DNA from: a virus
IMG/VR virus record: IMGVR_UViG_3300036671_000064
Location: 1 to 36,572 of that record
Strand: one strand, 5' to 3'
DNA: 36,572 bases
Numbering within the stretch: position 1 is the first letter of the stretch; every line of letters starts with the position of its first letter. The notes under the pieces are model-generated. The model ran no database searches. It was not told the origin of the DNA and was given only the letters and a program-made list of their open reading frames with translations. Made by a program: the position numbers and the translations under genes. Positions 1-21,775 of the stretch are shown here, piece by piece.

Positions 1-3000
1 GATTCTACCCAAATATCAATAGGATCTTTGCGGAATCTGCGGCCTCCTGCAAATACTTCAACTTGATCGCATGGTCCATAAGTAGAAGGTATTGAACTTC
101 TAAACCAGGTACTGTTACGTGTTCCTACAATAGGAACATATTCTAACGGGCCAATTAATAGTGTACTTCCGTCGCTGTAAAAATCTATTCGATCCTGTGT
201 TTCATTGTAGGGGATTGTGTCTTGCGGCCCAATATCAACTACTCCGGTTCCTGCAGGATACAATTCTCCAATTGGAGAACCTTGTGTTCCTCTTCTTAGT
301 TGGCTCAATATGTTACCAGTTTTATTCATATACTCAATACGTTCGCTGTTTATCCAAATAATTCCAGGAATATTTCTTCTTGCAATAGGATCAGATAATG
401 TAGACGCATCACTAACAGCTATACTGGTATCATAGTAATTTAAATTAGTTGTTAATTTAACTTCACCATTGGCAAATCTATTGAAATGATACACGTTTAA
501 CATATCCTTGTGTATTTCATAAGCACTTGGCAATTTAAATAACTGATTAGAGAAAGTAATTGTTTTAATATTATCAGTTGTGACAGTATCTATATTAAGA
601 TAAACAACATTTCTAGGTAAAGAAACATAGTAATCCTTATCTTGAGTTAATCGTTGACCATTTACATATACCCAAACGTAGCTTGCTGAGATCGGAGTTC
701 TTGATAATTGATATTGTACTTTGCCGCCGGCTCTTTCATCGGATATTACATCCAACGATGGGTATTCGCTAAACCAAGTAACATTAACTTCAGTATTAGA
801 CAGTTCGTCAACTGATGTCATGACTACTAAATCCCTAATTACAAGAAAATTATCAACAACAGAATATTCTGCTCTAAGGTCATTTTGAATCTTAATAATA
901 TCACCAACTGTTAATTTATCTGGATAAATTGTTAAGATCTTAGTAGGGCCATCGAACACATAATCTGTAATAAATGTTGCATCGATATTATTGATAAACA
1001 CTCTTATATTGCTTGGAAGAATACTACCAGGAGCTTCAACTGGATCAACTCCTAGTGTGAATACATTATTTGTTCCATTGTATTCTGTATAAATTGTATC
1101 TGATCCTGTTAACACTCTACCAGATACTTCAACAATCATAGAGTTTCGAGCACTGCCTCTAACAAGATTAACAAAATTATCTATCTCAAAACTACGTGTG
1201 CTTCCCTCAAAATATACTGTCTGCGTATTAATGTTAACTATTGATAATTTAGATGAATCAACATCAGTTGCTGCTTCTAGACAAACAATTTTAATAACAC
1301 TACCTAGCTGAGGAGTGAATCCAAACTGTACTAATGTTCGACCAACAGCATCAACAACATCGGTACTATTTTTAAATCCAGTGTCTATATACTCGCCATT
1401 AACTGTTACAAATATAGAAGAGGTATAATCATAATTTGCGTTGGTTAAGAATAAGTTAGTTATACCGTCGGCAATAAATTCTTGGTAATCAAGTATACCT
1501 AGGCCACCAATGCCCACCGACAGGATTTCAACTAGTGTTCCTACCGCAGGAGCTGAAATAAATTGGATGGTATTTTCTTTTAAATCTACAGTATAGTTAG
1601 TGCCGTATACCTTTTTAATTTTATCAACATAAACAATCACTGAATTATTTTCCAAAACTTGTTGGCCTATTTGATATATAACATCTATACCGTTGCCTTC
1701 AGAAATTTTAGTTTGCAATGTCGCTGATCCAGAAACAGTATTGTTGTATACTTTGATAGATACACTGTCTAATACTTGCCCTGGAACATTTTCCTCCGGA
1801 GCTGGTACTTGTTCTGGGCTGATAAATGTTCCTCCATTGATAGCAATTTCTTCTGCGGTTGCTCCAGTTGCAGTAATGTATGCACTGTCAATAGAAGATA
1901 GTGTTCCACCAGTTATTTTAGTATCTAGCAACTGATCGTCAGTAATAGTTACAGATCCATCACTTTCTATAGGACGGAATATTAATATATCACCTGCATT
2001 AGTTTGAACGTAAATTCCAACTGTTACATCACGGGTTAGTCCGTCGCCGATAAATGTTGGCATTTCAGCATTCGGAGTAACCGATGTTGACGAATCATCA
2101 ACACTGTTAAACGATGCAGAATCAATTCTCACTGCTGAAGATGTACCTACTCGCTTGATATAGATCGTTAATTCTTGGCCCACTGCTGGAGTGTAAGGTA
2201 ATGTTACATAGCTAATACTACCATCACAAATATGGTAATAATCCGAACTTGCTTCAACACTATCCCAGTTGTCTGTGAACCACGGAAGTGCATCCCAGCC
2301 GCCAGTAACATCAAACGTTGTTCCTTGGATCTGGACACCACCGAAGTCAATACCAGTCATTAACTGATTGAGTTCTTTTCCAACCATACCAGATGTCGGG
2401 TTATAATTTTGATCGATACGATTTACTGCATCTAACAATTCTATATTTTTATTATAAATTATTGAGATAACATCTCCTTTATCTGGAGCAGTATTAAAAA
2501 TAATTTTTCCTCTTAATAAAGAATAGCTATCAACTGCTGAATAATAGAATGTCAATGTATAGTCGCTGTTTAATACTAACTGACTATTTTTTGTTATCAA
2601 AATATCAGTCTTGTCTCTAGTTGGAGCGTATGCCAATTCAAATACACTAGTCAATCCAGATGCGGTAAAAATCTCTGATTGTTTAAACGAAGTGTAGATA
2701 CCTTCGGAGTTAATTCTATCAAACTTAACTGATAAATTAAATGTTCGAACTACTGAATTTCCTAATATTGCAACAGCTTTGGCTGTTATATCTCCTGTTG
2801 GGTTTCCGCCAACTAATGTAATTGTAGGAGCAGTAGTATATCCCGACCCAGCTGTTAGTATTGTTATACCAGAAACTTTTCCGTTAGAGATATAGGCCTG
2901 TGCAGTAGCTCCTGTACCATTTCCGGTAATCATTACAGTTGGCGGAGTAGTGTAGTTTTCTCCTCGATTATAAATGTCAATTTCTGTAATAGAGAAACCG

Positions 3001-6000
3001 TTATTATCTGCCCACCATTTCCAAGGATATGTTGTAAGTTCATCTCGGTCAGAAGTGACAGGGACTACCTTTCCATCTGCTATTGAATAGGTTGCTGGTA
3101 AGTCAAAGTCTGCTAAAGAAGACCCGTATGTTTCGGGAGACTCGTAACGACTTACATATTCTCTCACGGTTGTTCTGTAAGGTTTAACTTCGTCGATATA
3201 ATCTTGATAATTTGATAGATTGTCATTTCTATACGTCGGTGGACTTGCCAATAATCCAACATTATGGGTAGCATTTAAGAAACTAGTTTTGAACATCCAG
3301 TCTACGTAAGTCTGTTCTGATAAGATGTATCTCATAGATGTAAAGAACAACTTATTCCACTCTACTGAGTAATCTCCATTGTTGGATGTAAAGATATCTT
3401 CTTTAACAGCTTTAAAAATGTTTCTTAATTCTGCAGAATTATTAACATCATATCCAGTATCATCGAATGCTTTCGTATTGTCAAATCCAATTCCCAGGAT
3501 AGTAGTGTCATACAAAGATGCATTGAGTTGTATGGTGCCATTCTCCCTTCCAACTTGCGTAAACTGATCTAAAAAGGTTTCTGATATATTCGCAACAAGC
3601 AAAGGATTTATTGTATTTGATTTTTTTTCAAATACTGCCCAGCCTCCATCTCGAAAATCTTTAATTCTTATTAGATCACCGGGCAGTATTGTGTATAATA
3701 CCACATCAAAAATACTTAATAATTCTCTAGTAACTCGAGTATCTTTGCTGTAGCCTGTTTGCCACCAGTCGATATATGACCAGTATCTAGTAGTGTCAAA
3801 CGCTTGTGATTGACTTCTAAAGAAAACTCTGCGAATATCATCCCAGGCGTATACACTCCAAAAATTGTTAATTGTAGAATCAGAGTTGACTAATACAGAG
3901 AAATATCTAACTGTTGCAGAGATAGTGCTGTACTTTTTACCTCTTGCTGTAACAGCAATTGAAATTATTCTTCCTTGGTTATCCAAAGTAGCGGTTGCAG
4001 TTGCTCCTACTCCATTGCCTGATATAATCACAGGCGGAATCACTTTGTATCCAAACCCAGAATCAACAATATCAATAGTATCTAATTCACCGTTCACTAG
4101 ATTGGCAGATAATATAGCTCTTTTAGTTCTTACTGTTCCTACATTTTGTAAATCTAGTTCAGTGTCTACTACAACATCATACAAATTTAACACAGCGGCT
4201 GGCGCAGTATCTACTAGGTTTAAATTTGCAAAGTTGATGCCAGCAGCAAACGGACGCTGAGCTAATACAGAATTTATCTTGTTAATTGTAATTTTAAGAG
4301 CGGCAGTTCTATTAACAAACATACTCTGACGAGGTCTATATGATATTCCGTATTTTTGTTTAGCAGAAAGATTATTATCAGGTACTCGATTTCCTGATAC
4401 ATCGTATCCTATTAAACTATCAATCCATTTATTTTCTAATTGCTGTGTTGGTAAACTAGAAGCAACTCCCTCAGATAGCAGTTGGTACTCGCTGTGTATT
4501 GGAGTAGCGTGCGAGATGTCAGTTCTATATTTAAAATTTAACAACGCAGTATCAGAACCTATTACAGAATTAAAATTATAAGTTACAAATTTATCACTAG
4601 CAATTAATGCAACAAATGCTGTTCCGGTACTGGCAGGTGCAGAAATTAAGTTTGCAACCTCGGATGCAGATCTATTTCTGTTTGATTTATTAGTAGGAGT
4701 TACTGCTTTGCTCTTAACCCAATAATAATATAGAGTCTGATTAACCTCGCCGGTGGCATTGCTGAATAGTTGTTTAATGCTGTAAGTATCATTGTTAGGA
4801 TACAGCGGTTGTCCCGAAATTCCAATAGATAACCCTTCATTAGTATCAGCTAATATTGCCCATTCGCTAGGCAATAGTGTGGTCTCTACCCATTCGTATA
4901 CATCAACCGATCCGCCTTCTGCTAGCTGATTCCAATTGCCTAATCTATATGACAGATCACCTTGTTCAGCGTGGATCCATTTTGCTGTTCCTAGATTCCA
5001 CCATAATTCGCCTACATTCTTTTCCAACCAGTTAACTACTGGATCAACAACCGAAGTGGATGTTCCTATTGTATAGATTGCAGGATCATAAGAAGTTTTA
5101 AATTTAATTTCTTGCTCTGCTATGTTAAGAATTTTTCCCTTAGCAGGATCTACATAATCAATGTCTTGAATTTTTACATTGTTAACATTATCGTATAGTT
5201 GAATACTCTTAATTGTTCTTAAATCAACCACTGGTCGTTGTTGAGAAGTTGTAGTCCACGACTCAACAGCATCGTCTTTCTTAAACAGTCGCACGGTTCC
5301 TATAAACGGACCTTCGGCTACAAATACTCCGCGTCTATGTAACTGCAAAGGTCGGTGGTATGGAGATCCAACTATCACTACCGATCCAAAGCAGTCAACA
5401 CTAGAACCAAATCCTTCATTGGTCGACAATGCAGTTTCTAATTTTTCAGTTAAGAAAAATACCTGATCTTTTTTATCAAATATATAGACGCCGCCGGTGT
5501 ATCCTTGATCGTTATAGAAAGAAGTTCTTTCTTGATCAAAAATAGTGCCAGAAAGCACATCAAATGTTGCAGGAGCAGTGCTGTAAGTATTTCTTGCACC
5601 AACTGCTATTTTAGCTCCGTCGGGGCTTATAGAAATGCCGTAGCCAAAGTACTCGCTTGGATATTTTTCAAAACTCTCTAATTTTTGCTTTACCCTAAAT
5701 TCTGTATTACTCGCATCAAGTCCTAGCAAGTATACCGATCCTTGATTTTGATAGTTATAATCAGAACGCGGACTAGAAACAACTAGGTTATTTCCGGAAG
5801 CATCAATATCCATTGCGAATCCGAATTGATCGCCTGTGCTGACTACTAACCCAGAATCAATATCAGTAAATGTAGATATTGATCCTGCGTTAATCATTTG
5901 TGTTAATTGATATAGATCGTAACTTGTTTTCTTGTAAACAAAAATCTTACCAGAAGGGCTAGTTGTACTATCCCCTACTACTTGCCAATTAGCACTGTTG

Positions 6001-9000
6001 GACGGATCTTCATTAAAACTTCTGTATGTAGAATCAACTCCAACTGGTTCTCCTAATTTATAATATTGGTAGGACAATGTATCGTTTATGTTACCGTGTT
6101 TTACAACTTCACCTTCTGCATATTCTACATCAGATCTCCATATGCCTCTATAATTTGTAAAATACTGACCGTCGCTATTTGGCGCTCCGATAACAAGTAT
6201 AGATGCATCGTGACTCATTGCCATACTAAATCCAAATTGATCACCTTGTTTGATCATTTCGGCTAACTGGGTAGCAGACAGTATTCCTGTTATACCAAAT
6301 GCTAGTGTAGAGTTGTCATCTTCTAATGCAATATTTGACGGCAGTGAACAATTAGTAGACACTTCACTAACTTTCAGCCAATTTGCTGAGTCTAGTGTTA
6401 ATGTACTACCGTCGCCAAACTGATCAACTACTGCTTGCCATAGTTCGCCTCGTGCTCCGGTACCTGGGTCAATTGCTGTTTGCCAGACAATATCTCCAGC
6501 GTAATAATTTTCTGTAATATCATATACTCCCCTATAATGAGGATTTTCCATATGACTCCAGCCAGATCCGCTATTCTTAAATAGATATACTCTACCAGCA
6601 TTGTTCCACGCACCCAATGCGCTTACTGCAATATAATAATTTGTACCATCAAACCCAGCAGTAATTTCAGAACCAAATTTTTCTAAATCTGTTGGGCGAG
6701 GACTAGCAAATGCTGCGGTGTTTGTATAACGTCCGTTAGCGTATTGATAAATTGCTATCATTCCTTGATTAAACAAGCCAGTACTGCTTCCTGAAGAAGT
6801 AACCGGAATGCTGGTTGCCAAGGTCCAATCGTCTGTGTTGATTGCTGATACTGTACTACCGTCTAAGACAAAGTCAAAAGGATTAGCATTTACTGCTCTC
6901 CACAATCTTCCTTCGTATAGGACAACTTCGTCAATTTGATAACGGGTATCTGGTCCCCACTCTCCTCGATAATTAGACAATACTCCACTAGCCAACGGAG
7001 TACCAACAATTAAGAATTTTCCGTCCGGAGTAAGAGCCATTGTATCTCCAAACGATCCCACAGAAGCAGTGAATGAGCCTACTGGAGGAGAAACAATCTG
7101 TTTTAACTGTAGGCCTGTATCTGTTTCTACGTATACTCCAACCAAGCCCGAACCAGGTATGCTAGAAATTACTTGTTTATTGACACCGTCATACAACACT
7201 TTCTTGCCAGTGTTCAATGGGGTAGTTGTTCCGTAATCAGAAATCAATTTAGAAGAATAAACATTATTTTTTTCAATAACTTCCCATAGATCGTTACCGT
7301 TATTATCAACAAATAACTTTGAGTTATTTTTTAACACTGCGGCAGTAACAGGGTCTATTGCATCGTACTGAGAGAATCTACATTCTGTCAGTACCTGTGG
7401 ATTAATTGTAGAGCTACCATCAATTACTGGATCTTGTATCGCCGAATCAACTTCAACAGTGATAGATGTGTTGGTAACACTGACAATTTGATAAAATCCG
7501 ATTAAGTTTGTTAACTCTCTAAATCCAACATACTCGTTAACTTCTAAAGAATGCGGTCTGTTCATTTCAAGTTGCACAGTAGTGCTGCTCAATCTATCAA
7601 CTGAATTTACGATTAGTACAGGTGACTCGTTGACTCGCAACACAGTCCATGAGTCTTTATCAAAGGTTACCCAGATATGATCGTTCTCATTAACTGTAGT
7701 AATATCTAGTGTTGTTAAATCTGCTCGAGTTACAATTCTGTGATCATAATTGTTAGTTGAAACATACCCAGCAGTTAGTGTTGGTTCTGCATCTGTTGAA
7801 ACAGGATTAATATCAGTAGCATAAGGAAGAGAAGAAATAGTAAAATCTTTCTTAGTTATTCTATAATTTTGATCAGTGACAACATTAGGTACAGTTGCTT
7901 CTATTAAAAACGGTTGAGAGTTTAGTAGAAGTTTATTTTTTTCTATCTGAATTTCAATTTCAGAAATTTCGTCGGTGCCGCCTAATCTTCCTACTAGGAA
8001 TGCCCACTCCTCATTCAATACAATGCTATCAGATCCAGAACGACTTAATTTTCCAAATATCTTAGTAATTGCATTAGCTGTGCCTTTCTCTCTTATAAAT
8101 CCCTGATACAGTTGGAATTGTGTTACAGAGTCTGATGAAAGATTCTGTAAATAGGTTCTAGTCTGATAACCAATTGTATGTCTTGCTAGATCCCTGTTAC
8201 TCTTGTCTAATCCTTCCGACGTCACTTCAAAATAATCTGCAAATCCGTTAATCTTATAATCGAAGTTTGCAACTAATTGCTTGGTAGGAGTAGTGTCTAA
8301 TTTAGTCCAATAAACATTATCAAATACCTCAGTACCTAATTGATTTTGTAGACTAGTCCAGTTATAACTTCTGTAAGAAACAATATCTCCTAACTTATAA
8401 TCAGTGTATGGAGTCCATGGTTGTATACTTACATTATCAAATAAGAATCCGGGACTAGTATAATCACCGTCCCAATCGGTTGTTCTGAAGCCTTGAAGTT
8501 TAATACGGCCTTGACGGTATCCGGTTGTCTTATCATAGATAATGTCATTGAACACGGTTCTATCATCAAAGATAGTTACATGTTCTTTTAGAACATAATA
8601 TAATTTTAAGTAAAAGATACCATCGGTTGTATTTGTAGTTGTAACTAAAATATTTTGAAAGTTTCTAGTAACATCTATAAACTGGGGAGCTAACGGCTTG
8701 CCGTCTCCTTTGAGAACTTGATAATTATAAAATCCGTCTAAGATGTTATCAGCAGTACCAACTGGAATAGTAATATTAACTTTCTGAGCAGCAGGGCTAA
8801 TAGAAATCAATGCACCTACTTGCCAGCTATGTTTAGTCCAGAACATAAATTCTTTAGCGGCTGATAACCAATCTTGCGATACTTTATTTTCTGGATCGTA
8901 ATTATCAAATGTAAATCCAACGCTCTTTAAGTATGCTTCATATCCAAGTAGGAAGTCCACAACCTGTTGAATGTTTGAAAATTCTGTGCCGTAGCTTAAC

Positions 9001-12000
9001 TGTTTAACAGAAAGTGTATTAAATGTTTTTCTTCTAAATGCTTCAACTGATCCAATCTGCGGAACTCCTGGAAGTTTTTGCCATATTGCAGTATCAAAAG
9101 ATGCGCCACTAGTATGAGTTTTTAACGCTCTATAAAAAGTATTATTGTTTCGAACTAGTGTTCCGTTATTGTATAGTTTATCTTCTTTCCAATCTAAGAA
9201 ATTTTCACTAACTCCGCCTATAGAAATTAACGGGTCTCGTTGATTTGCGATAGCTTGGAAATAATTAAAGTAAGGCTGGATGTCGTCATATCCAGTAATT
9301 ACCCAACCACTAGCAGTTTTTTCTAAAATTATACCGCTATAGGTAACGCTTGCAATAGGACTGCTTACATTAAAGATAATATCAAAATTTTCTTGAGGAA
9401 CATAGCTGCTACTAGAAGTTGCATTTGGATTTTTTGAATCTAGTAAAAATTTCTGTTGCGATTGATCAACAAATCCAGACATTCTGTACGATAATGCAAC
9501 ATCTAAGTTAGCAATCTTATCCCATAATGTTGTTGGATTAATTCCTCTAGATTTGACATAATCAGTTAAGTACCTAACTAGGCCGCACGACGCATCACTG
9601 TCTTTATAGACAAAATCTGTTAACTGAATAAATGTATTTGTATCAGACCGTACTGTTTGATTCAAGCTGTTTACTGCCACTTTAGATCTATCAAAACTAT
9701 CAGCAATGAATTCAAAAGGCTTCATCAAGCACATGGCTAATGTAACAGCAAATGGCCATTCAGAGCTCGATCTCCAGGCGTGTTCAGCTGGACTGTGATC
9801 TCCAAATTTAAAAGATCCTCGATTGTTAATTAAAGAAAAATCTTGTGCTAAACCAGAATCCAACGGACTTAATAATTTTCCGTCGTTGTCAACAGGAATG
9901 TGCTTTAATAAGGTAGGTCTTTTATAACGATCATATATTCCAACTCTATCACCTTGGCGAACAATACCTGCTGCTAAATCTTCCCATAAAATTAAGTTGC
10001 CGCTAGTGTAAGGTGCAGGACCGTACTCATCTTGCCACCATGTTGGTTCTTGACTGAATCCTAACATTTCCCAAGGGCAACGATGTGGCCTATCTGTATC
10101 GTAGAACCATGCATAGACTCCTCTCCAATATCCAGGAAGACTGGCTGTTTTTGTAGGATCGGACATTCTAGAATAGGTATAGGTGAAACTATCTTGACTA
10201 TCAAAGTAGGTGTTTAACGTGTAGTTGATATTGGTATTTTGAATCCATTTTAAGAATTCTTGATTTACAATAGCATCAAGTTGAGATTTTTTGTAAAGCC
10301 CAACACCAGTATATCCACTAATAATATCATCAATATTGAATATTTTTTCGTTGTATTCTTGTTTGATATTGTTATAAATTCGATATTCTAATTCTAATAA
10401 TAGGTCGTCTCTAAAGTCACCGTAGGCTAAATTTGTGCTACCATCGTGTCCTTGAATCACTTCTCGGGATTCTGAATAAGTGTCGTCTACAAATTTAGCA
10501 GGAGTGTATTTTTTATACAATCCCATAGACGTTGGAGTTGAAGGAATATAATTAGTTGATGTTGAAATGTATTCTCTAATATCAACAACGTCGCCTTCAG
10601 TTAATGCAATTGATAATTGTACAAAACCAAATACAGAATTAAATGTATAATCTCTAGTGTTTAATAACTGCTTTCCATTGACATATATATAGACTGCTCG
10701 GGTGCTTAACGTAGTTAAACTAAACTTTTCTGACAACGCAAATACATTAATTCCAGTATCTTCAACAATATAATTAATTGACGTAAATGCCCCAGCACCG
10801 ATCATATCTGATCCTGCAAATGGGCTATTTACATTTTTAGTCTTTGTTAAGCTGTTAATAATATTATCAACAAAATCTACAACATTGTCATTGTATTCTA
10901 TCTCTAATGCTCTTGTTAAGAAATTATTTTTGAAATCAGTATATGATTTTCTAGCATATTGAATTGATTTAATAATGTTATGTGTTTTATCACATAAGGT
11001 CATTATAGTAACCGGAGTTAATCCCGAATGTTTTAAAAAGCGTTTACTGTGCTGCTGGTAATTCGAAATGTCTTTCAGATTAGAATTTCCTGGAACAATA
11101 CCAGTAATTTCGGTATTAAATTCTAAAGCAGTTGATAAATGATCAATTGCCTGTCCAAGAGTGAACAATGTTAATGCATTATTAAACGGATTCTTTTCCA
11201 AGCCCACAGGTATTTCATAATACCCTTCTTCAGGAATAATATTACCAATTAGTTTTATCGATACTGCATCATTTACAACAAACGGTGTTGTAAATGTGAA
11301 CGTATCAACATTACGTGTCCAGCTGCCTAAATACTTTGTGCCGTTAACATAGAAATTAATAATTGGCTCTTCTGTAAGATTATCCCATCTAACTGTATTA
11401 AAGGTCAATACATTAGTTGTCGTTTTTACAATTTGACTGTCAATTATTGGCTGTAAAAATTCACCGTCAAGTTCAGACCAACCGTTTTCGTATTCAATAC
11501 GTGCAATATTGTTGATCTTATAAAACCCAGTGTGTAGATTCTTAGTTTGAAATAATCGGTCTACAGTATAATTAAACGATGCAGTATCCCACAACCATTC
11601 AAACTGTATGTCTCCAATGTTGTTAATATTAAGGTAGCTGATACTAAACCCTAATTCTTTATCAACAATACTATTTCCTAATTTGTAACTTAGTAACTCT
11701 GTTCCTACAAATGTGCTAGTTGGATATGTTGTTGCATCTGCAAAACTTACTCCGTTGGCATCGACTGCATCAAACAGCGGAGGTTGATTGACAGACAATT
11801 TGGCTTGGCTTTCTGTCCAGCTTGTGCCATTAAAGTGAAACATTTTTCCACTATTAATAGTTCCTCTACGGACTAATACGCATTCTCCAGCTGTTGATAC
11901 AGAATCTGCTGTCTCCTTTAGGTGTAGTTGCTGAGTGTTTTTAAACTTTATAAATGAAACTTCGTAAATTTTATTGTTTGCAAGGATGTCGGTATCAGCA

Positions 12001-13571
12001 ACAATTAATACTCTTGCTCCTTCGAATAAAAATTCTCCGTCAATATTATAACCTGCACTACCTTCTATATTACTAAGAACATCAGTAGTAAATGTATCAA
12101 TGTAGTCGACTGTTGGTTTTGCAATCGAGCCGTGATTGAATAGTTGTAAATTTGATTTAAATTCAATAATTGGTCGTTTAGCTCGGAGAGATTCAGTTGC
12201 AGGGAAATCTTCTCCTCGTTGAGAATACGATTGTTCCAATACACTTCGGTGGAACCAACGATTGTATCGACTCCATGGATTTGAATCAATACTGTTTCTC
12301 TTGATTGTTATATAATCTTTATATGTAGGATATGCTGTTGCATCGTCAAAGGGTTGAGAATCAAACCCACCGTTATCGAACAATACTTCTGGAACATCTG
12401 TTGTCAACACCGGTACTACAAGATCATCAAATTTAGTAAGGGTAATAGTTTCGCCAACACCTTCAACTAACCAAGTATCCTTAGCGTACTTGGAAGGCAA
12501 CACTGCGCCTCTAAATTCAAGTACCATGCCATTTGACAATACTACTCCATTGCTGGAGGTATATGTAGATTTTCCTAAAATTTCTTGGTCAACGTTGATT
12601 GATGTATTGCTTTCAATGTCTGAGATTAACAATCTACCAAACATCTCCGGAGTTATTAAACTCTGATAATACAGAACGGTAGGTGCATCATATGGGACTT
12701 TAAAAGTTAAAGTTCCGTTTTCGGTTCCGTTATTTGTAATTCCATTTGAATATTCTAATGCAGTTTTAGCTGACGCTGGTTCGACATATTCCCAATCTTG
12801 GGTATCAATGGAAATAGAACTACCGTCTAGTGGAGAGATGTCTACTTTGGCTCTCCATAGTTTGTTATCAGATACTGCCAACTCATTAATCCTATAAGAT
12901 TTATATGGTTGATATATCAACGACCCGGTATCAAAATTTGTTCTAATTGAGAATCCCTGCCCAGGAGCGTTGACTTTAAATTTATAAGTCTGACCTCTGT
13001 ACAGGGTAAGTGTTGGGTTATTTGTATATGCGTCAGGAGTAAGTACAAACGAGTTGCCAGTTGTACCCAGTACTACTTTATAAGAGCTGGTAATCTTAGC
13101 AGACTGCCCGGCAATTGCGATACTGCGAGGTCCAGCTGGTTCCCAATAGTATTCTCTATAATTGATAAATGTATCCCAATCAATTGGGGGATTCCATGTA
13201 TAATGCTGCTGACTTGTAATATTGTCATCACGTTCGTCTGTATTTCCAAAAAACTTTAATTGATTCTTAACATCAATATAGTCGTAAAAATTTTCTACAG
13301 TATCATTATTTTTATAAACAACACCGGGTTCTAGTTGATATCTACTTCTTAATGTATTGTCTGCATCTACATAGATATCTGAACCAAAGTAAGTCTTATC
13401 GTACTTCCGACCTGCATATCCAACAACCTTGTCTAGTACACCTGGCTGAACTAGAGGGTCTAGTACCCCGGATAAGAATTTATCATTTGCACTTGTTTGA
13501 AATATGTTTGGCAGAAGCTCAACTGTTCTTCTAATCGGTACACCGCTGTTAGGATAAAATTTATTTGCCAT
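1..13571 (-). CDS. Giant virion structural protein next to gp6 (partial, C-terminus off window)
   Basis: An uninterrupted minus-strand frame begins at ATG 13571, 5 bases after the gp6 stop, and stays open to the window edge (at least 4523 codons). It starts MANKFYPNSGVPIRRT; the first 150 residues (LLPNIFQTSANDKFL, then FINYREYYW) resemble the start of very long structural proteins I recall from aquatic T4-like phages. Further in are six modules of the form W..Y..GD.V...Y.A....DW, six FG-GAP-like blades (about residues 2170-2765), Gly-rich GxGY units (about 3160-3600) and repeated VNGxxLxxxxDY units. In T4 the slot after gp6 holds gp7, about 1032 residues, so this could be a gp7/gp10 replacement or a fibre-like baseplate attachment. 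That role is inferred from position. The identity as a virion protein is well supported; the exact function is not. Confidence 0.85.
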   Translation of the reverse strand, partial: MANKFYPNSGVPIRRTVELLPNIFQTSANDKFLSGVLDPLVQPGVLDKVVGYAGRKYDKTYFGSDIYVDADNTLRSRYQLEPGVVYKNNDTVENFYDYIDVKNQLKFFGNTDERDDNITSQQHYTWNPPIDWDTFINYREYYWEPAGPRSIAIAGQSAKITSSYKVVLGTTGNSFVLTPDAYTNNPTLTLYRGQTYKFKVNAPGQGFSIRTNFDTGSLIYQPYKSYRINELAVSDNKLWRAKVDISPLDGSSISIDTQDWEYVEPASAKTALEYSNGITNNGTENGTLTFKVPYDAPTVLYYQSLITPEMFGRLLISDIESNTSINVDQEILGKSTYTSSNGVVLSNGMVLEFRGAVLPSKYAKDTWLVEGVGETITLTKFDDLVVPVLTTDVPEVLFDNGGFDSQPFDDATAYPTYKDYITIKRNSIDSNPWSRYNRWFHRSVLEQSYSQRGEDFPATESLRAKRPIIEFKSNLQLFNHGSIAKPTVDYIDTFTTDVLSNIEGSAGYNIDGEFLFEGARVLIVADTDILANNKIYEVSFIKFKNTQQLHLKETADSVSTAGECVLVRRGTINSGKMFHFNGTSWTESQAKLSVNQPPLFDAVDANGVSFADATTYPTSTFVGTELLSYKLGNSIVDKELGFSISYLNINNIGDIQFEWLWDTASFNYTVDRLFQTKNLHTGFYKINNIARIEYENGWSELDGEFLQPIIDSQIVKTTTNVLTFNTVRWDNLTEEPIINFYVNGTKYLGSWTRNVDTFTFTTPFVVNDAVSIKLIGNIIPEEGYYEIPVGLEKNPFNNALTLFTLGQAIDHLSTALEFNTEITGIVPGNSNLKDISNYQQHSKRFLKHSGLTPVTIMTLCDKTHNIIKSIQYARKSYTDFKNNFLTRALEIEYNDNVVDFVDNIINSLTKTKNVNSPFAGSDMIGAGAFTSINYIVEDTGINVFALSEKFSLTTLSTRAVYIYVNGKQLLNTRDYTFNSVFGFVQLSIALTEGDVVDIREYISTSTNYIPSTPTSMGLYKKYTPAKFVDDTYSESREVIQGHDGSTNLAYGDFRDDLLLELEYRIYNNIKQEYNEKIFNIDDIISGYTGVGLYKKSQLDAIVNQEFLKWIQNTNINYTLNTYFDSQDSFTYTYSRMSDPTKTASLPGYWRGVYAWFYDTDRPHRCPWEMLGFSQEPTWWQDEYGPAPYTSGNLILWEDLAAGIVRQGDRVGIYDRYKRPTLLKHIPVDNDGKLLSPLDSGLAQDFSLINNRGSFKFGDHSPAEHAWRSSSEWPFAVTLAMCLMKPFEFIADSFDRSKVAVNSLNQTVRSDTNTFIQLTDFVYKDSDASCGLVRYLTDYVKSRGINPTTLWDKIANLDVALSYRMSGFVDQSQQKFLLDSKNPNATSSSSYVPQENFDIIFNVSSPIASVTYSGIILEKTASGWVITGYDDIQPYFNYFQAIANQRDPLISIGGVSENFLDWKEDKLYNNGTLVRNNNTFYRALKTHTSGASFDTAIWQKLPGVPQIGSVEAFRRKTFNTLSVKQLSYGTEFSNIQQVVDFLLGYEAYLKSVGFTFDNYDPENKVSQDWLSAAKEFMFWTKHSWQVGALISISPAAQKVNITIPVGTADNILDGFYNYQVLKGDGKPLAPQFIDVTRNFQNILVTTTNTTDGIFYLKLYYVLKEHVTIFDDRTVFNDIIYDKTTGYRQGRIKLQGFRTTDWDGDYTSPGFLFDNVSIQPWTPYTDYKLGDIVSYRSYNWTSLQNQLGTEVFDNVYWTKLDTTPTKQLVANFDYKINGFADYFEVTSEGLDKSNRDLARHTIGYQTRTYLQNLSSDSVTQFQLYQGFIREKGTANAITKIFGKLSRSGSDSIVLNEEWAFLVGRLGGTDEISEIEIQIEKNKLLLNSQPFLIEATVPNVVTDQNYRITKKDFTISSLPYATDINPVSTDAEPTLTAGYVSTNNYDHRIVTRADLTTLDITTVNENDHIWVTFDKDSWTVLRVNESPVLIVNSVDRLSSTTVQLEMNRPHSLEVNEYVGFRELTNLIGFYQIVSVTNTSITVEVDSAIQDPVIDGSSTINPQVLTECRFSQYDAIDPVTAAVLKNNSKLFVDNNGNDLWEVIEKNNVYSSKLISDYGTTTPLNTGKKVLYDGVNKQVISSIPGSGLVGVYVETDTGLQLKQIVSPPVGSFTASVGSFGDTMALTPDGKFLIVGTPLASGVLSNYRGEWGPDTRYQIDEVVLYEGRLWRAVNANPFDFVLDGSTVSAINTDDWTLATSIPVTSSGSSTGLFNQGMIAIYQYANGRYTNTAAFASPRPTDLEKFGSEITAGFDGTNYYIAVSALGAWNNAGRVYLFKNSGSGWSHMENPHYRGVYDITENYYAGDIVWQTAIDPGTGARGELWQAVVDQFGDGSTLTLDSANWLKVSEVSTNCSLPSNIALEDDNSTLAFGITGILSATQLAEMIKQGDQFGFSMAMSHDASILVIGAPNSDGQYFTNYRGIWRSDVEYAEGEVVKHGNINDTLSYQYYKLGEPVGVDSTYRSFNEDPSNSANWQVVGDSTTSPSGKIFVYKKTSYDLYQLTQMINAGSISTFTDIDSGLVVSTGDQFGFAMDIDASGNNLVVSSPRSDYNYQNQGSVYLLGLDASNTEFRVKQKLESFEKYPSEYFGYGISISPDGAKIAVGARNTYSTAPATFDVLSGTIFDQERTSFYNDQGYTGGVYIFDKKDQVFFLTEKLETALSTNEGFGSSVDCFGSVVIVGSPYHRPLQLHRRGVFVAEGPFIGTVRLFKKDDAVESWTTTSQQRPVVDLRTIKSIQLYDNVNNVKIQDIDYVDPAKGKILNIAEQEIKFKTSYDPAIYTIGTSTSVVDPVVNWLEKNVGELWWNLGTAKWIHAEQGDLSYRLGNWNQLAEGGSVDVYEWVETTLLPSEWAILADTNEGLSIGISGQPLYPNNDTYSIKQLFSNATGEVNQTLYYYWVKSKAVTPTNKSNRNRSASEVANLISAPASTGTAFVALIASDKFVTYNFNSVIGSDTALLNFKYRTDISHATPIHSEYQLLSEGVASSLPTQQLENKWIDSLIGYDVSGNRVPDNNLSAKQKYGISYRPRQSMFVNRTAALKITINKINSVLAQRPFAAGINFANLNLVDTAPAAVLNLYDVVVDTELDLQNVGTVRTKRAILSANLVNGELDTIDIVDSGFGYKVIPPVIISGNGVGATATATLDNQGRIISIAVTARGKKYSTISATVRYFSVLVNSDSTINNFWSVYAWDDIRRVFFRSQSQAFDTTRYWSYIDWWQTGYSKDTRVTRELLSIFDVVLYTILPGDLIRIKDFRDGGWAVFEKKSNTINPLLVANISETFLDQFTQVGRENGTIQLNASLYDTTILGIGFDNTKAFDDTGYDVNNSAELRNIFKAVKEDIFTSNNGDYSVEWNKLFFTSMRYILSEQTYVDWMFKTSFLNATHNVGLLASPPTYRNDNLSNYQDYIDEVKPYRTTVREYVSRYESPETYGSSLADFDLPATYSIADGKVVPVTSDRDELTTYPWKWWADNNGFSITEIDIYNRGENYTTPPTVMITGNGTGATAQAYISNGKVSGITILTAGSGYTTAPTITLVGGNPTGDITAKAVAILGNSVVRTFNLSVKFDRINSEGIYTSFKQSEIFTASGLTSVFELAYAPTRDKTDILITKNSQLVLNSDYTLTFYYSAVDSYSLLRGKIIFNTAPDKGDVISIIYNKNIELLDAVNRIDQNYNPTSGMVGKELNQLMTGIDFGGVQIQGTTFDVTGGWDALPWFTDNWDSVEASSDYYHICDGSISYVTLPYTPAVGQELTIYIKRVGTSSAVRIDSASFNSVDDSSTSVTPNAEMPTFIGDGLTRDVTVGIYVQTNAGDILIFRPIESDGSVTITDDQLLDTKITGGTLSSIDSAYITATGATAEEIAINGGTFISPEQVPAPEENVPGQVLDSVSIKVYNNTVSGSATLQTKISEGNGIDVIYQIGQQVLENNSVIVYVDKIKKVYGTNYTVDLKENTIQFISAPAVGTLVEILSVGIGGLGILDYQEFIADGITNLFLTNANYDYTSSIFVTVNGEYIDTGFKNSTDVVDAVGRTLVQFGFTPQLGSVIKIVCLEAATDVDSSKLSIVNINTQTVYFEGSTRSFEIDNFVNLVRGSARNSMIVEVSGRVLTGSDTIYTEYNGTNNVFTLGVDPVEAPGSILPSNIRVFINNIDATFITDYVFDGPTKILTIYPDKLTVGDIIKIQNDLRAEYSVVDNFLVIRDLVVMTSVDELSNTEVNVTWFSEYPSLDVISDERAGGKVQYQLSRTPISASYVWVYVNGQRLTQDKDYYVSLPRNVVYLNIDTVTTDNIKTITFSNQLFKLPSAYEIHKDMLNVYHFNRFANGEVKLTTNLNYYDTSIAVSDASTLSDPIARRNIPGIIWINSERIEYMNKTGNILSQLRRGTQGSPIGELYPAGTGVVDIGPQDTIPYNETQDRIDFYSDGSTLLIGPLEYVPIVGTRNSTWFRSSIPSTYGPCDQVEVFAGGRRFRKDPIDIWVE
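590..2620 (-). repeat. VNGxxLxxxxDY beta-sandwich-like repeats in the giant protein
   Basis: The distal part encodes several related units of about 40-50 residues with the core V.V.(N/D)G..L....DY......I.F...P..GD.I.I. Readable copies are near 2455-2620 (ITKNSQLVLNSDY), 1530-1650 (VYVDKIKKVYGTNY), 1285-1425 (VTVNGEYIDTG), 890-1010 (VFINNIDATFITDY) and 590-715 (VYVNGQRLTQDKDY). A related unit lies much earlier, near 10580-10705 (IYVNGKQLLNTRDY). They suggest growth by module duplication. Confidence 0.5.
2770..4082 (-). repeat. GxGY...PP Gly-rich beta repeats in the giant protein
   Basis: Two blocks, about 3905-4082 and 2770-2995, encode units of the form I..GxGY..PP.V.I.GNG.GATA.A followed by G.I..I.V...G..Y. 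Examples are SGFGYKVIPPVIISGNG and RGENYTTPPTVMITGNG, with a third half-unit GSGYTTAPTITLVGG. Such units are common in phage tail and fibre proteins and are expected to form beta structure. Between the blocks lies helical sequence with VDWMFKTSFL. Confidence 0.6.
5278..7060 (-). other. FG-GAP-like beta-propeller region inside the giant protein
   Basis: Six successive blade-like units can be read, in protein order: GSFGDTMALTPDGKFLIVG, EKFGSEI...YIAVSALG, DQFGFSMAMSHDASILVIG, DQFGFAMDIDASGNNLVVS, YFGYGISISPDGAKIAVG and NEGFGSSVDCFGSVVIVG. Most are closed by a strand such as RVYLFKN, KIFVYKK, GSVYLL, GGVYIF or GTVRLF. This matches FG-GAP/integrin-alpha type blades. Calcium-loop residues are only partly kept. 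Six blades are visible and a seventh could be degenerate. The fold is an inference from these motifs. Confidence 0.7.
5976..12920 (-). repeat. Six dispersed carbohydrate-binding-like modules (CBM5/12-type pattern)
   Basis: Six segments in the giant protein share an aromatic, a Tyr about six residues on, G[DE].V, then [YW].A and a closing D..W. Approximate positions are 12783-12920 (SYRINELAVSDNKLWRA), 9065-9205 (WKEDKLYNNGTLVRNNNTFY), 8293-8430 (YTDYKLGDIVSYRSYNW), 6805-6976 (YRGEWGPDTRYQIDEVVLY), 6366-6543 (YRGVYDITENYYAGDIVW) and 5976-6160 (YRGIWRSDVEYAEGEVV). The pattern resembles chitin/cellulose-binding CBM5/12 domains. The last three sit inside the propeller region, each preceded by NYRG or HYRG. 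Sugar binding is inferred, not shown. Confidence 0.55.
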
Positions 13572-13576
13572 ATTCT

Positions 13577-16500
13577 TTAAAATGTTGTTGTAACAACGTT
13601 GTTGATATTTGTTCCAATTTCAGATGCTGTGATAGCTGTGACTATTTCAACATCGTTAACTGTTGCTCCGCTAATTAAGATTTCGTCTGCTCGAGATTGA
13701 ATCTCAAATAAGCTACCAAATACTTGTGTAGTTTGTTTAGGTACAATGACAATGTTTGCCAAGTCAGGAGCAACTGTGTTTAAAATATAAGTCGTCATCT
13801 CGCTCATGTAAAATCTATCTCCAAAATCCCAATTGTTTATATCGAAGAAATTATTAATAGCTCCAATGACTCTAACTTTTAGATCATTATCATTGATAGT
13901 TCTATTAGGGTTCTTAACTACTTTAAATGTTGCTTGCAATTTTTCTTCTGCCTTGCTGCCAAATAATATCTTATATTTTACAGGATGATAAATTATCTCA
14001 TCGCTTAACGATTTAATAGCAGATAGATTTGTTCCAAACGAAATTCGCAAACTATTACTATCCGGTGCTACTGGTTCTGTTGCCATTGCTCCCGATAGGT
14101 ACAATCTATAATCATTGTCGTATGACCGTGTTAACATATACAAATCAATTATATTACTCGAACTAGGATCTATTCTACGGCTTTCACTAGCATTATGTAT
14201 ATACTGGAATTTCAAATTGCGTCTACCTATGTTGGCTTTGTAATTTGTATTTAAATCTAAAGTATTAGTGGTTCTATTAACTTGTTTAATTACATCTACT
14301 CCGATATCATAAAAATAAATTAATTGCCCGCTTGGATAAGTTTCTGTATCTGTAAAATCAACAGTTGACTCTTTTTCTCGGATTAGGATTAAGTTATTAG
14401 AATTATCTAATAGTTCGTATACAGTAGACCCGTATTGATCAGTAGTTTTTTGGAAGAAAAGATAATTTAATTCCTGGTCCAATCCCACAATTTGTTCAAA
14501 CGATTCAGGATTATCAATCACCCCATTATTATTTGAATCGTAAAATGCCAATTTAATTTCGCTGGTACTTTCGTATCCATCATCAAATTTAATTGTGTCA
14601 GTTAATGTAAACGGGACATCTTGTTTTAATTCTGTGATAAAATTACTACCGGTGTTTATTCCCAAAACTTTGACTTGGTCTTTAACAACATTTCCTAGTT
14701 TATCGTTATACTGTGCTTCGTTGGTATCTAAGTAAAATCTATTTTGTTTAACACTACCAAACACATACATTAATTTTCGCAATCTAATCACGTATCTGTC
14801 TGCGTCTTTAACAAATGCTACCATCCAAGAAGCATCCACATTAGTGTTTGATGTGTCTCCGGCTTTACCTAGATTAAAATCGCTAGTAAGATCAATACTA
14901 GACGAAGTGACAATTTTCCATGATGATGTTATCATATCGTATCTTAAACCAAAATTTAAATTTTGAAAAGATTGATTTACAATTTCATTTTGCAGGGCTG
15001 TTGGCAGATTGTTCACAAATCGAGGAACTATTCTAGCAGCAATTGCTCCTGTTGGAACTTGATCGCTTAGTGTAATTGGGCCAAGTCCGCTGGTCAATAC
15101 ACCACGGCCGGCATTAGTACCGTCACTGGCAATCTGTACAGCTTCGGTCCACAATCGGTCTGTTTGAGTTGGGTCGTTGACATCGATAGGAACTAGTTTG
15201 CCGTTTTTAAATGCTTGTCCTGCTGGGGGGATAAATTTAATCAATGCTCCTACAAACAGATACTTTAACGAATTCGTTGAGTATGCACTAACTTTTAGTA
15301 ACGAGTTATCAATTACACTTTTAAAATATCCTGTTGGAGTAGAAGTTGTGATCGATTGCCATACTGTATTACTGTCTGTGAATAGTATTTTATCAAAGTT
15401 TGTAAAGTAAAAATTATAAACTTCGGAGCTTGTAAATTCAGCCTCAAGGGTATTGTTAATGAAATTAAGAATATCAATTCGACTGTTAAATTTAAACGAT
15501 AATGTGTTTTCGCTGCCTTCTTTATAAATGTATCCATCATCACAAAAAAGATTAACTGAGCTGTATTTTCCAGATGCATCAATAATATCAAAGTTTCTAG
15601 AAATTCCGCTAGATGTTCGATTAATTGCTTTAATCTTAATAATATTTTGACTGCTAGCCAACGGTGCTAGATTGTAATCTTCCGCGGTAATCATTCTATT
15701 CTGAGTATAATATACCGCAGGAGCATTGGTTCTGATAGCATCAATATCTTCAGATGCAGAAGAGTTTGCTACAGTCGACTGAAGCGCAAGACCAATAGTA
15801 GCAGTATGTGCTACTCCGGCAGAATTAACATAGCTAATTCCAATATTAATTCCTCGCATATCGCCAGGATATATTGTATATGATAAGCCATTGCTTGTTC
15901 TATAGTAAACACGGAACGCACCTTGAGGCAAGTTGCCGTAATTGCCGTCTGCAAATACTAGATCAATTGTGTCGTTTTCTTTTGTATTAATTGCATAGAT
16001 ATCTCTAATATTCTGACTTATGCTATTGTAGGCAATATTATTTCCTACCAACGATGAAACTTTAGACCATTCTGATAGCTGTGCTGCGGTCGATGTTAAT
16101 GAAAATAACCATACATCGTCATTATTAATGTTTGTGGCATCGACTGCAATTTTTTCGTTAGTTGTTGGAACAGGAATACTAAAATCAGCAAGCTCTAATG
16201 TTCCTTGTTTAAACATTAAGAAAAATCCAGTATTGGCACTACCTGGTCCTGCTCCATCATTTTTATAAACAAATCCAAGTTGATTCCCAGGAACAGGCGG
16301 CTCTTCGTAAATGTTTTCGCTATTGGCAAAAGCAGTAGAAACAATTTCAAATGACATGCTTCTCGATGCTACTGTTTTAGAAAATGCATAAAGTGGTACA
16401 TCAGTGCTAGTTGTTCTAAAACGATATTGTTCTGTAGGAATGCCTTGTATTGTTGCTGATCCTTGGCTACGACCAAATTCAGTGTTATCAGACATGGAAG

Positions 16501-16984
16501 AATTCAATACTAGAATAAATTGCTCTAACCAATTGGTATTAGTTGGGTCGTTCCACGAAATATTCTGATTGGCTAAATTCTTTCCATTGCTGTCTACAAG
16601 TGTGTCGGTCGTTGATATTGATGTAAATTTCAACAAGCCGTTAGAAGAAAGATTACGTTTAGCATTATAAGAAAGCATACGGGCAATGCGTAGAACGCTT
16701 TCTTTTGTCTCAGCTAGTTCAATAAAGTTTTCACGACTAGCTAGGTCAATACGGAAGGATAAACTCTGGCCAAGAAATGCGATGGCATCAATGAGAGCCA
16801 TGTATTCACTGCTTTCAATGTAATCATTAAAATCTTCTGGATAATTTTCACGTAGATAAGTGATAATAACACGGCGTAGATTCTCAAAATCGTAACTTTT
16901 GAAGTCCGCATTTTTAAATGTTTGATAAATTCTAGTCCAGTCCTGGTTTAGAATTAAATTATTTTGTCTGCTTGTTGTGGTCAT
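13577..16984 (-). CDS. 6: Baseplate wedge protein gp6
   Basis: A 1135-residue protein matching the gp6 (baseplate J-like) family. gp6 forms the inner ring that joins the wedges of the T4 baseplate. The N-terminal stretch, with YLRENYPEDFNDYIESSEY, ALIDAIAFLGQSLSFRIDLA and LASRENFIELAETKESVLRI, is the hallmark start of this family. The C-terminal region (FGDRFYMSEMTTYILNTVAP) is also baseplate-J-like. At about 1.7 times the T4 length (660 residues) it carries extra middle domains. The ATG at 16984 follows an AGGG Shine-Dalgarno with a 7-base gap, and a GATAAATA late-type promoter lies about 18 bases upstream. gp25 precedes it and the giant structural gene follows 5 bases after the stop. Identity is firm; the role of the extra length is unknown. 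Confidence 0.9.
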   Translation of the reverse strand: MTTTSRQNNLILNQDWTRIYQTFKNADFKSYDFENLRRVIITYLRENYPEDFNDYIESSEYMALIDAIAFLGQSLSFRIDLASRENFIELAETKESVLRIARMLSYNAKRNLSSNGLLKFTSISTTDTLVDSNGKNLANQNISWNDPTNTNWLEQFILVLNSSMSDNTEFGRSQGSATIQGIPTEQYRFRTTSTDVPLYAFSKTVASRSMSFEIVSTAFANSENIYEEPPVPGNQLGFVYKNDGAGPGSANTGFFLMFKQGTLELADFSIPVPTTNEKIAVDATNINNDDVWLFSLTSTAAQLSEWSKVSSLVGNNIAYNSISQNIRDIYAINTKENDTIDLVFADGNYGNLPQGAFRVYYRTSNGLSYTIYPGDMRGINIGISYVNSAGVAHTATIGLALQSTVANSSASEDIDAIRTNAPAVYYTQNRMITAEDYNLAPLASSQNIIKIKAINRTSSGISRNFDIIDASGKYSSVNLFCDDGYIYKEGSENTLSFKFNSRIDILNFINNTLEAEFTSSEVYNFYFTNFDKILFTDSNTVWQSITTSTPTGYFKSVIDNSLLKVSAYSTNSLKYLFVGALIKFIPPAGQAFKNGKLVPIDVNDPTQTDRLWTEAVQIASDGTNAGRGVLTSGLGPITLSDQVPTGAIAARIVPRFVNNLPTALQNEIVNQSFQNLNFGLRYDMITSSWKIVTSSSIDLTSDFNLGKAGDTSNTNVDASWMVAFVKDADRYVIRLRKLMYVFGSVKQNRFYLDTNEAQYNDKLGNVVKDQVKVLGINTGSNFITELKQDVPFTLTDTIKFDDGYESTSEIKLAFYDSNNNGVIDNPESFEQIVGLDQELNYLFFQKTTDQYGSTVYELLDNSNNLILIREKESTVDFTDTETYPSGQLIYFYDIGVDVIKQVNRTTNTLDLNTNYKANIGRRNLKFQYIHNASESRRIDPSSSNIIDLYMLTRSYDNDYRLYLSGAMATEPVAPDSNSLRISFGTNLSAIKSLSDEIIYHPVKYKILFGSKAEEKLQATFKVVKNPNRTINDNDLKVRVIGAINNFFDINNWDFGDRFYMSEMTTYILNTVAPDLANIVIVPKQTTQVFGSLFEIQSRADEILISGATVNDVEIVTAITASEIGTNINNVVTTTF

Positions 16985-17026: not shown

Positions 17027-17464
17027 TCAGATTATGACAGAGTTGGCTTTGTCAAAGTTAAATGTCATGCGCTCGTTAATGTTAAACGGAATATACACTA
17101 TGTCAGCTTGTATTCTAATACCCTGTTCTGTAGTATCTATCTGTATCTCGTTTACTGAAATTCTAGGATCGTAATTGATAATATCCTCAACATCTTTGGC
17201 AATTATTTTCTTTACATCTTCAGTAAATTGTTCAAATAGCATATCCCAAATAACAGTACCAAATTCTGGATTCTCTAATTTTTCACCTTTACGAATATAA
17301 AAATGATTCATTAAATCTTGTTTTACAAGATCAATATCGTATAGTTTATAATTCTTAGCAGATTCAACAGAACTAAATCCTTTGTAGGTAAGGACCCCTG
17401 TGTTACTAATAACTTGTGCAGTAGACGATGCTACAGTTTTTTGATTATAAAGTTTTGTTGCCAT
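17027..17464 (-). CDS. 25: Baseplate wedge protein gp25
   Basis: A 145-residue protein of the gp25/GPW family, a lysozyme-like-fold wedge subunit that with gp6 and gp53 forms the core bundle and starts sheath assembly. Family signals are DIDLVKQDLMNHFYIRKGE, NPEFGTVIWDMLFEQ and INYDPRISVNEIQI. The NPEFG and DPR segments correspond to the conserved core of GPW/gp25 proteins. The length is close to T4 gp25 (132 residues). The start at 17464 comes 2 bases after the gp5 stop, so it is probably translationally coupled. Identity is secure. Confidence 0.92.
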   Translation of the reverse strand: MATKLYNQKTVASSTAQVISNTGVLTYKGFSSVESAKNYKLYDIDLVKQDLMNHFYIRKGEKLENPEFGTVIWDMLFEQFTEDVKKIIAKDVEDIINYDPRISVNEIQIDTTEQGIRIQADIVYIPFNINERMTFNFDKANSVII

Positions 17465-17466
17465 GA

Positions 17467-19068
17467 TTAATCTATATCCCTATCAGTGTTATCAGGTGTT
17501 AATTGTGTAGGAGCCTGATTCTCGTGTAGCGGCCAAGGTTCGTGCATTGGAATACGTTTCATAAGACTTTGTACAATCCCGGATTGATATCGCTTTACAT
17601 CCCAACCAGCAGTTGTGCTTGTTGCCGGGTTATCTCGTAGATTATAAGGCTTTACAAAAGTTGCAATATCAGCCGGAACAGCATTTATTGTGTCATTCAA
17701 ATGTATTGCAGGAGCAGTTTCTACAATCTGTGACGAACTACCAATACTAATATCGCCAGTTGCACTTGCCCTTATTTCACCGTCGGCTGCAAGATCTAAA
17801 TTATTATTAGCTGAAATTTTACCAGTTGCACCTATAAGGATATCTAAGTTAGCTCCTACTGTTAGCAACGAGTCGCCGTTGATTAAAAACTCCATATCGC
17901 TACCTATTTCAGCATGCCACTTGCCAGTCTCTGTTCTAAAGTTCATATTGCGACCGGCTTCAAAGTTGATATCTCTATCTGCCCTAAAGTTAAAATCTAT
18001 TTTGGTATGGACACTGATACTGTCTTCTGCATAGATATCAATTTTACCATTACTGGTCATTTCTATCCAAGTAGTTCCTCTAGCATTGCCAATGTAAATT
18101 AAGTCTTCACTGTTATGCATTAACAATTGATGCCCTGTTCGGGTTCTAACTCTAAAATATTCACCAAACGGGACTTCTGCTTTGTAATCGCTCTCTTTGG
18201 TATTTTTATCTAACAGGTCAACATATTTTACAGGACCGTCTGCGGCAGTGGTAGCACGATGGTATCGATCAACTCCGTCATCCATTACAAACTGAGTACC
18301 ACCTAATCGGCTGATCGGTTTAGGTTCTGACGTGTCATCAATCTTTCCCACTTTTGCTTTTTTAGCATTGGTTCTACGATCAAGTGGTCCAGGTGTGCTG
18401 ATGCCAAATACCGCGCTAGGGGTTTCCCTTCTAGAGGATGAAGTTGATACTCCCCGTACATCATCTTCTAATAGGCCCTGCTCTAAAAATCTATCAGCAA
18501 TAGGGTGTACTGGTTTTTTAATTTTTTCTGGATCTATTTCGCTATCTTTTTTAGCATTAATAATTTTATTAATTTCTGCAACAGGCAGTGGCAATTTAGT
18601 ATTTCCGTACCTTGCTTTATCTATAGGGTCTAATGTGTTTTCTGTGCTGCCAGCAATTGCTGGAACCATATTATTAGTAAACTGTCCAGGTACACAGGCA
18701 AACCAGTAGCACTGACTTTCATCTGAGTCTACAAATATAACCAATACGTTAACACCCACATCTGGTGGTACAAACCACATACCGTAACTTTTTTGTGTAT
18801 CATTGAATCCGTCTAATGTAGATTTCGATCCATCATTCTGCCCCATAAATTCAAATGGAGTATAGCCAAAGAACGGACTTGCATATCTAGCGGAGTAGGT
18901 CTGTGAATCTTCACCGGCGGTATTTGCTTGGGCCTTTAACAATTGAACTTCAAGTCCGCCCATAAAGGTTGCATCAAGATGGCTGATTACTCTAGCCAAG
19001 AAGGGACCCGATCCTAATTTGTTCTTTCTACCTTCGCCTTCGGCGGATGGGCGACTTGCTGTTGACAT
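17467..19068 (-). CDS. 5: Baseplate central spike protein gp5 (VgrG-like), no lysozyme domain
   Basis: A 533-residue spike protein. Residues about 20-135 form the OB-fold region (GPFLARVISHLDATFMGGLE; YGMWFVPPDVGVNVLVIFVD). Residues about 136-295 are a polar linker with DRFLEQGLLEDDVRG and VFGISTPGP. Residues about 300-455 form the triple-strand beta-helix, with repeated short strands such as GKIDIYAEDSISVHT, DINFEAGRNMNFRTE and GDISIGSS. T4 gp5 carries a lysozyme domain between the OB-fold and the helix; here the linker is short and shows no such domain. The start directly abuts the stop of the 801-residue hub gene, as expected for coupled translation. It would pierce the cell envelope as a trimer on the hub. 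Confidence 0.88.
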   Translation of the reverse strand: MSTASRPSAEGEGRKNKLGSGPFLARVISHLDATFMGGLEVQLLKAQANTAGEDSQTYSARYASPFFGYTPFEFMGQNDGSKSTLDGFNDTQKSYGMWFVPPDVGVNVLVIFVDSDESQCYWFACVPGQFTNNMVPAIAGSTENTLDPIDKARYGNTKLPLPVAEINKIINAKKDSEIDPEKIKKPVHPIADRFLEQGLLEDDVRGVSTSSSRRETPSAVFGISTPGPLDRRTNAKKAKVGKIDDTSEPKPISRLGGTQFVMDDGVDRYHRATTAADGPVKYVDLLDKNTKESDYKAEVPFGEYFRVRTRTGHQLLMHNSEDLIYIGNARGTTWIEMTSNGKIDIYAEDSISVHTKIDFNFRADRDINFEAGRNMNFRTETGKWHAEIGSDMEFLINGDSLLTVGANLDILIGATGKISANNNLDLAADGEIRASATGDISIGSSSQIVETAPAIHLNDTINAVPADIATFVKPYNLRDNPATSTTAGWDVKRYQSGIVQSLMKRIPMHEPWPLHENQAPTQLTPDNTDRDID

Positions 19069-21475: not shown

Positions 21476-21775
21476 TCACACTCCTAAAAACTTTTCTAAG
21501 TTACTTTTCTTAGGAAGGTAGATTCTTGTACCTGGCTCAAAATCATAGATAGGATCTTTGATAACACTTAGGTTTCGCTGAACAAACACCCACCATAACT
21601 TAGGACTACCATAAACATCATAGGCCAGTAAGTCGGGTCTATGACGATATTGATTTTCAATAACATATTGAAAGTCGTCGGGTTCGGCCGGTACTGGTCT
21701 AATATTAAGTAATTCCAAATATAAAGAATTTTGTAGGGTAGTAGACCACGGACTTGAATTTGTATAGTTTGCCAT
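21476..21775 (-). CDS. 53: Baseplate wedge protein gp53
   Basis: A 99-residue protein of the gp53 family, which with gp6 and gp25 forms the wedge core. Recognisable segments are YRHRPDLLAYDVYGSPKLWW, VFVQRNLSVIKDPIYDFEPG and TRIYLPKK. The last part reads like the LysM-like tail of gp53 (D.EPG..I..P). It is about half the length of T4 gp53 (196 residues), so the C-terminal extension seen in T4 is missing. It starts 1 base after the gp48 stop and ends 1 base before the hub gene, in a fully packed operon. Confidence 0.82.
   Translation of the reverse strand: MANYTNSSPWSTTLQNSLYLELLNIRPVPAEPDDFQYVIENQYRHRPDLLAYDVYGSPKLWWVFVQRNLSVIKDPIYDFEPGTRIYLPKKSNLEKFLGV

Follow-up and report, generated by a model that had tools for sequence, protein, structure and literature searches.

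A seven-bladed FG-GAP_2 propeller carrying predicted CBM5/12-type modules, inserted into a giant virion protein encoded next to gp6 in an uncultured phage

The window analyzed here is the whole 36,572-nucleotide stretch of the virus record IMGVR_UViG_3300036671_000064 (IMG/VR, positions 1 to 36,572). This 36.6-kb record carries a T4-like baseplate gene run on the minus strand, in which genes for gp53-like, gp5-like, gp25-like and gp6-like proteins are followed by a single giant open reading frame:

21476..21775 (-), gp53-like wedge protein
17467..19068 (-), gp5-like hub protein
17027..17464 (-), gp25-like baseplate wedge protein
13577..16984 (-), gp6-like baseplate wedge protein, directly preceding the giant in gene order
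3..13571 (-), giant virion structural protein, 4523 aa inside the window, with the C-terminus cut by the window edge and the frame still open
9192..11234 (-), conserved core of the giant, residues 780-1460, in which residues about 928-1002 form a fibre-adaptor-like beta domain

The gp6-like protein is also enlarged, at 1135 aa versus 660 in T4. Giants of relatives with both ends present measured about 4595-4800 aa. By profile match (1026 bits) the giant was assigned to phrog_10938, a virion structural protein that occupies the same gene place after gp6, and it is collinear with the giants of PA5oct, RaK2, Atu_ph07, SCTP-2 and Phosso; a gp6-like gene adjoins the giant gene in PA5oct, RaK2, Atu_ph07 and Phosso. 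A phmmer search of the giant against the PDB gave no match. The PA5oct homologue is annotated with an ESI-MS/MS note as a virion protein, and CBB_236, which is numbered beside the gp6-like CBB_237, was reported as a structural protein seen with 21 peptides (PMC5259590); from that position, CBB_236 would be a further homologue. A preliminary description of this DNA, made from the letters alone, had placed a giant baseplate-linked protein next to gp6, and this was borne out by the gp6-, gp25-, gp5- and gp53-like neighbours and by the mass spectrometry of homologues.

The gene place directly after gp6 is that of T4 gp7. Profile similarity to gp7 was found neither by hmmsearch nor by hhalign, which gave a probability of at most 0.3% in every slice of the giant, and the candidate assignment as a gp7 homologue by sequence was dropped. 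When the modelled core (residues 780-1460) was used in a fold search, the sole match was the fibre-adaptor-like domain of about 65-77 residues (Z 8.8 to the N-terminal region of CBA120 TSP4), with no gp7 chain among the matches listed. The core has no gp7 profile similarity, so the case for a wedge position is made by gene order and by the mass spectrometry of homologues, which together suggest a virion protein of the baseplate-wedge region. The location at the baseplate periphery given in the preliminary description is likely in this light: the gp7 gene place supports it, and gp7 sequence similarity does not.

Several minor features of the giant were recorded. Residues about 3524-3599 (2793-2948, -) hold a G.GYT..P.V repeat that matched phrog_460 (head closure Hc2) and is present several times in the giants of Atu_ph07 and Phosso. 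A string of fibre-adaptor-like repeats (VxVYVNG...DY...GD.I.I..Y) was seen by eye towards the C-terminus, in window positions 1-3000 (-); Pfam Phage_T7_tail scored below its cut-off. In relative L009 (15109-17454), the giant is broken into two overlapping frames of 3830 and 781 aa, through a frameshift or an assembly error.

The middle of the giant contains a beta-propeller with the following parts:

about 5232..7220 (-), seven-bladed FG-GAP_2 (integrin-alpha-type) propeller, residues 2118-2780
7080..7220 (-), blade 1, residues 2118-2164, FG motif lost, four strands modelled at pLDDT about 90
6702..7058 (-), blade 2, CBM module a in the B-C loop
6546..6692 (-), blade 3
5880..6257 (-), blade 4, CBM module c in the B-C loop
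5670..5840 (-), blade 5
5430..5666 (-), blade 6, B-C loop insert poorly modelled
5232..5420 (-), blade 7

Pfam FG-GAP_2 (PF14312) matched the giant (E = 1.2e-13; 51.4 bits, cut-off 23) and matched all 26 of the 26 sequences in the propeller alignment. All six copies of the FG motif in the giant fall within residues 2095-2800; composition shuffles of the propeller region contained the motif 0.04 times on average and twice at most. An AlphaFold2 model of residues 2095-2800, built from the alignment of 26 sequences, reached a mean pLDDT of 74.5 and a pTM of 0.80, and its strands, as read from the DSSP line, form seven groups of four, the first without the FG motif. Integrin alpha chains made up most of the top Foldseek matches (E 6.6e-13), and VIA-align superposed the model, along its whole length (model residues 9-675), on integrin alpha-L with Z 25.2 (356 residues, 2.8 A). 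WD40 and designed seven-bladed propellers followed closely (Z 23-24), so that the propeller fold is firm and kinship with integrins rests on the FG-GAP sequence. The calcium motif DxDxDG of the integrin FG-GAP family (PF01839) was absent from residues 2095-2800, Pfam FG-GAP_3 gave no match over the whole record, and tblastn with the propeller gave none in 50,697 phage records.

The FG-GAP propeller proposed in the preliminary description was thus confirmed by both profile and fold searches. Six blades had been counted there since blade 1 lacks the FG motif; the motif does occur six times, but the blades number seven. The range proposed, 5278-7060 (residues 2171-2765), lies inside the propeller but leaves out blade 1, and the three CBM5/12-type modules within it had been missed.

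The site at which the propeller sits is bounded by two strands of the host domain:

7236..7286 (-), host-domain strand upstream of the insertion (WEVIEKNNVYSSKLISD); when fused with the downstream strand, it can be aligned through the junction with Atu_ph07 3172-3319
5187..5261 (-), host-domain strand downstream of the insertion (SWTTTSQQRPVVDLRTIKSIQLYDN), in the same junction alignment
4260..5255 (-), conserved block downstream of the insertion, residues 2773-3104

Five cultured giants (PA5oct, SCTP-2, Atu_ph07, Phosso and RaK2) lack a propeller at this site. For a junction test, the propeller was removed, residues up to 2108 were fused to residues 2772 onward, and the product was aligned to these propeller-less giants. 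Alignments of the fused flanks ran through the junction for Atu_ph07 (3172-3319; 33.8%, E 2.4e-27), Phosso (E 1.6e-28), PA5oct (E 2.9e-24) and SCTP-2 (E 8.7e-22), a large share of each score coming from the conserved block downstream; the match to RaK2 was weaker (E 1.7e-13) and gapped at the junction. Since a W.V.E strand is followed directly by a W......VD strand in Atu_ph07 and Phosso, the propeller appears to have been cleanly inserted into a beta-hairpin.

Small modules resembling carbohydrate-binding modules of the CBM5/12 type were located inside the propeller and elsewhere in the giant:

6813..6971 (-), CBM5/12-type module a, residues 2201-2253, blade 2 B-C loop
6366..6536 (-), CBM5/12-type module b, residues 2346-2402, in the linker joining strand D of blade 3 to strand A of blade 4
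5970..6152 (-), CBM5/12-type module c, residues 2474-2534, blade 4 B-C loop
12780..12917 (-), another CBM5/12-type module, close to the N-terminus, residues 219-264
9072..9191 (-), another CBM5/12-type module, residues 1461-1500
8298..8426 (-), weak CBM5/12-type module, residues 1716-1758

Over the whole giant, CBM_5_12 (PF02839) matched with E 9.3e-8 (32.4 bits, cut-off 26.2). Singly, the propeller modules are weak in Pfam, module a of the window protein scoring E 0.033, below the cut-off, and the case is carried by the family-wide profile: PF02839 was matched over the propeller stretch by 22 of the 26 aligned members at E <= 0.01, and at module a the alignment profile matched chitin-binding regions of the deacetylase DA1 (E 0.003) and of a chitinase (E 0.02) in the PDB. 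The profile used to locate the modules was built from the propeller modules and a few others and gives their positions rather than independent proof of identity. The B-C and D-A loops of a propeller share one face, which in integrins is where the ligand binds and the alpha-I domain is inserted. From strand order and standard propeller topology, modules a, b and c are all predicted to lie on this one face. By eye, residues about 188-307 (12651-13010, -) resemble a beta domain that is frequent in proteins of cyanophages, with the N-terminal CBM5/12-type module nested inside.

Among uncultured relatives, the propeller is present, with an open and conserved frame, in those IMG/VR giants closest to the window protein that extend to the site, as well as in many that are more distant. 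Its loops vary. One relative (L230) has an FG-GAP_2 propeller (E 4.2e-18) with no CBM match inside, while one CBM is found in the propeller of L225 and two in that of L239; L034-L052 keep all three, and an insert of about 130 additional residues in their blade 3 C-D loop is similar in appearance to the cyanophage-type domain just described. L265 and L272 have matches in the same stretch. These comparisons suggest that the propeller is a scaffold with exchangeable loops that accept zero to three CBMs or other inserts. In 95% of the pairs among 86 giants, conservation of the scaffold was below that of the core (median identity 0.50 versus 0.62), and scaffold identity was 0.48-0.51 where that of the core was 0.58-0.63. 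In close pairs (core identity 80-95%), the propeller was as conserved as the core (0.88 versus 0.87). Host-range determinants are often hypervariable, and divergence only moderately above that of the core speaks against the propeller as the main one; a role as a fast-changing host-range determinant was dropped in view of the close pairs.

The reading favoured here, which is judged reasonably likely, is that the propeller is an accessory platform for glycan binding, located on the baseplate wedge and working like the CBM-bearing wedge protein Gp119 of phage Vp4. A seven-bladed FG-GAP_2 propeller would have been inserted into a beta-hairpin of one giant domain and three CBM5/12-type modules into its D-A/B-C face, so that the propeller would act as a rigid turret presenting small glycan-binding modules side by side. 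If the protein is present in six copies per baseplate, as are T4 wedge proteins, weak sugar-binding sites could form a ring close to the cell surface; this ring might add avidity, or steer the baseplate onto the surface, once fibres have engaged. Given the three chitin-binding-type modules in its loops, the propeller is probably a docking surface for host surface sugars carried within the baseplate of this phage family. The putative adhesion role suggested in the preliminary description gains weight from three predicted modules on one face. Its contrast with a separate fibre did not hold: in a 280-kb relative (L004), a gene for a Phage Tail Collar fibre protein of 703 aa follows the giant gene at a distance of about 700 bases, so the propeller would add to fibres.

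Propellers often bind proteins, and an alternative is that this one is a protein-protein docking platform in the virion that anchors fibres or joins wedges, with the CBM-like modules as beta-fold spacers. The fibre-adaptor-like domain in the neighbouring core, the collar fibre gene beside the giant of L004 and the slow turnover among close relatives all favour it, as does a CBM5/12-like match in Cis13 (All3316) of an Anabaena injection system, for which the available part of the source does not mention sugar binding. Gain and loss of modules while the propeller persists would nevertheless be odd for an essential fixed interface, and propeller-less homologous giants are still found in virions; this reading is accordingly considered rather unlikely, though deserving of weight. 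Chitin is the classical ligand of the CBM5/12 families, and binding to surfaces that are not host-specific, such as mucus, biofilm or chitin particles, might raise the encounter rate rather than serve cell recognition. This is considered improbable; a search for relatives in cellular genome contigs, aimed at hosts, found none, which counts against it. That the propeller is a non-functional passenger in a large, insertion-tolerant structural protein would agree with the many inserted modules of the giant and with the absence of the propeller from the five cultured giants, but its open, conserved frame in close and distant IMG/VR relatives and the level at which scaffold identity holds relative to the core make this very improbable.

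Taken further, the glycan-binding platform leads to a tentative proposal, somewhat doubtful as it stands, that the wedge of a whole clade of large uncultured myophages has come to include an integrin-like adhesion head, whose ligand face serves as a plug-in site for sugar-binding modules, host or surface affinity shifting by loop insertion independently of fibres. If true, large phages would have a second, fibre-independent route to surface affinity, with sugar-binding modules on a stable propeller in a core baseplate protein. Natural controls are available in the collinear propeller-free homologues of cultured phages and in the CBM-free propellers of relatives. No description of a CBM-bearing propeller in a giant baseplate protein was found in a literature search.

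The integrin alpha chain shares the seven-bladed fold, and its alpha-I domain, like the phage CBMs, emerges between blades as an additional domain on the D-A/B-C face; the phage propeller differs in lacking the DxDxDG calcium loops, in belonging to FG-GAP_2 rather than FG-GAP and in having CBM5/12 modules in the place of the I domain. By Pfam, the giants of PA5oct, RaK2, Atu_ph07 and SCTP-2, the four covered by the scan, have at most one CBM5/12 stretch. The closest functional parallel, likened by description, is the Vp4 baseplate wedge 3 protein Gp119, whose CBM folds accompany binding to (decoration of) host cells, whereas the CBM-less homologue Gp177 does not bind; its authors stated that, to their knowledge, CBM proteins were unreported in myophages (PMC11406892). 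Gp119 differs in its CBM16-type and xylanase-CBM-like modules, its length of 831 aa, its Gram-positive host and the absence of a reported propeller (PMC11406892). The Alg11 spike cage of the Algoriphagus contractile injection system (AlgoCIS) is a baseplate protein with carbohydrate-binding modules proposed to aid attachment, but these have CBM27/32-like folds and form part of a cage rather than a propeller (PMC8894135). The receptor-binding protein of S. aureus phage phi11, likened here by description, has a propeller in a baseplate host-recognition device dependent on GlcNAc-bearing teichoic acid, but is a separate protein of a siphophage (PMC4901313).

Outside the baseplate run, the window encodes a SegE-type GIY-YIG endonuclease at 26864-27298 (+) and, by eye, a second GIY-YIG-looking frame at 32671-33237 (+), the 3' end of which overlaps the start of an ORF at 33224. 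An 864-aa ORF at 30067-32661 (+), without a match in the PHROG search, has 16 consecutive glycines near its N-terminus and lies in a region of strong local GC skew.
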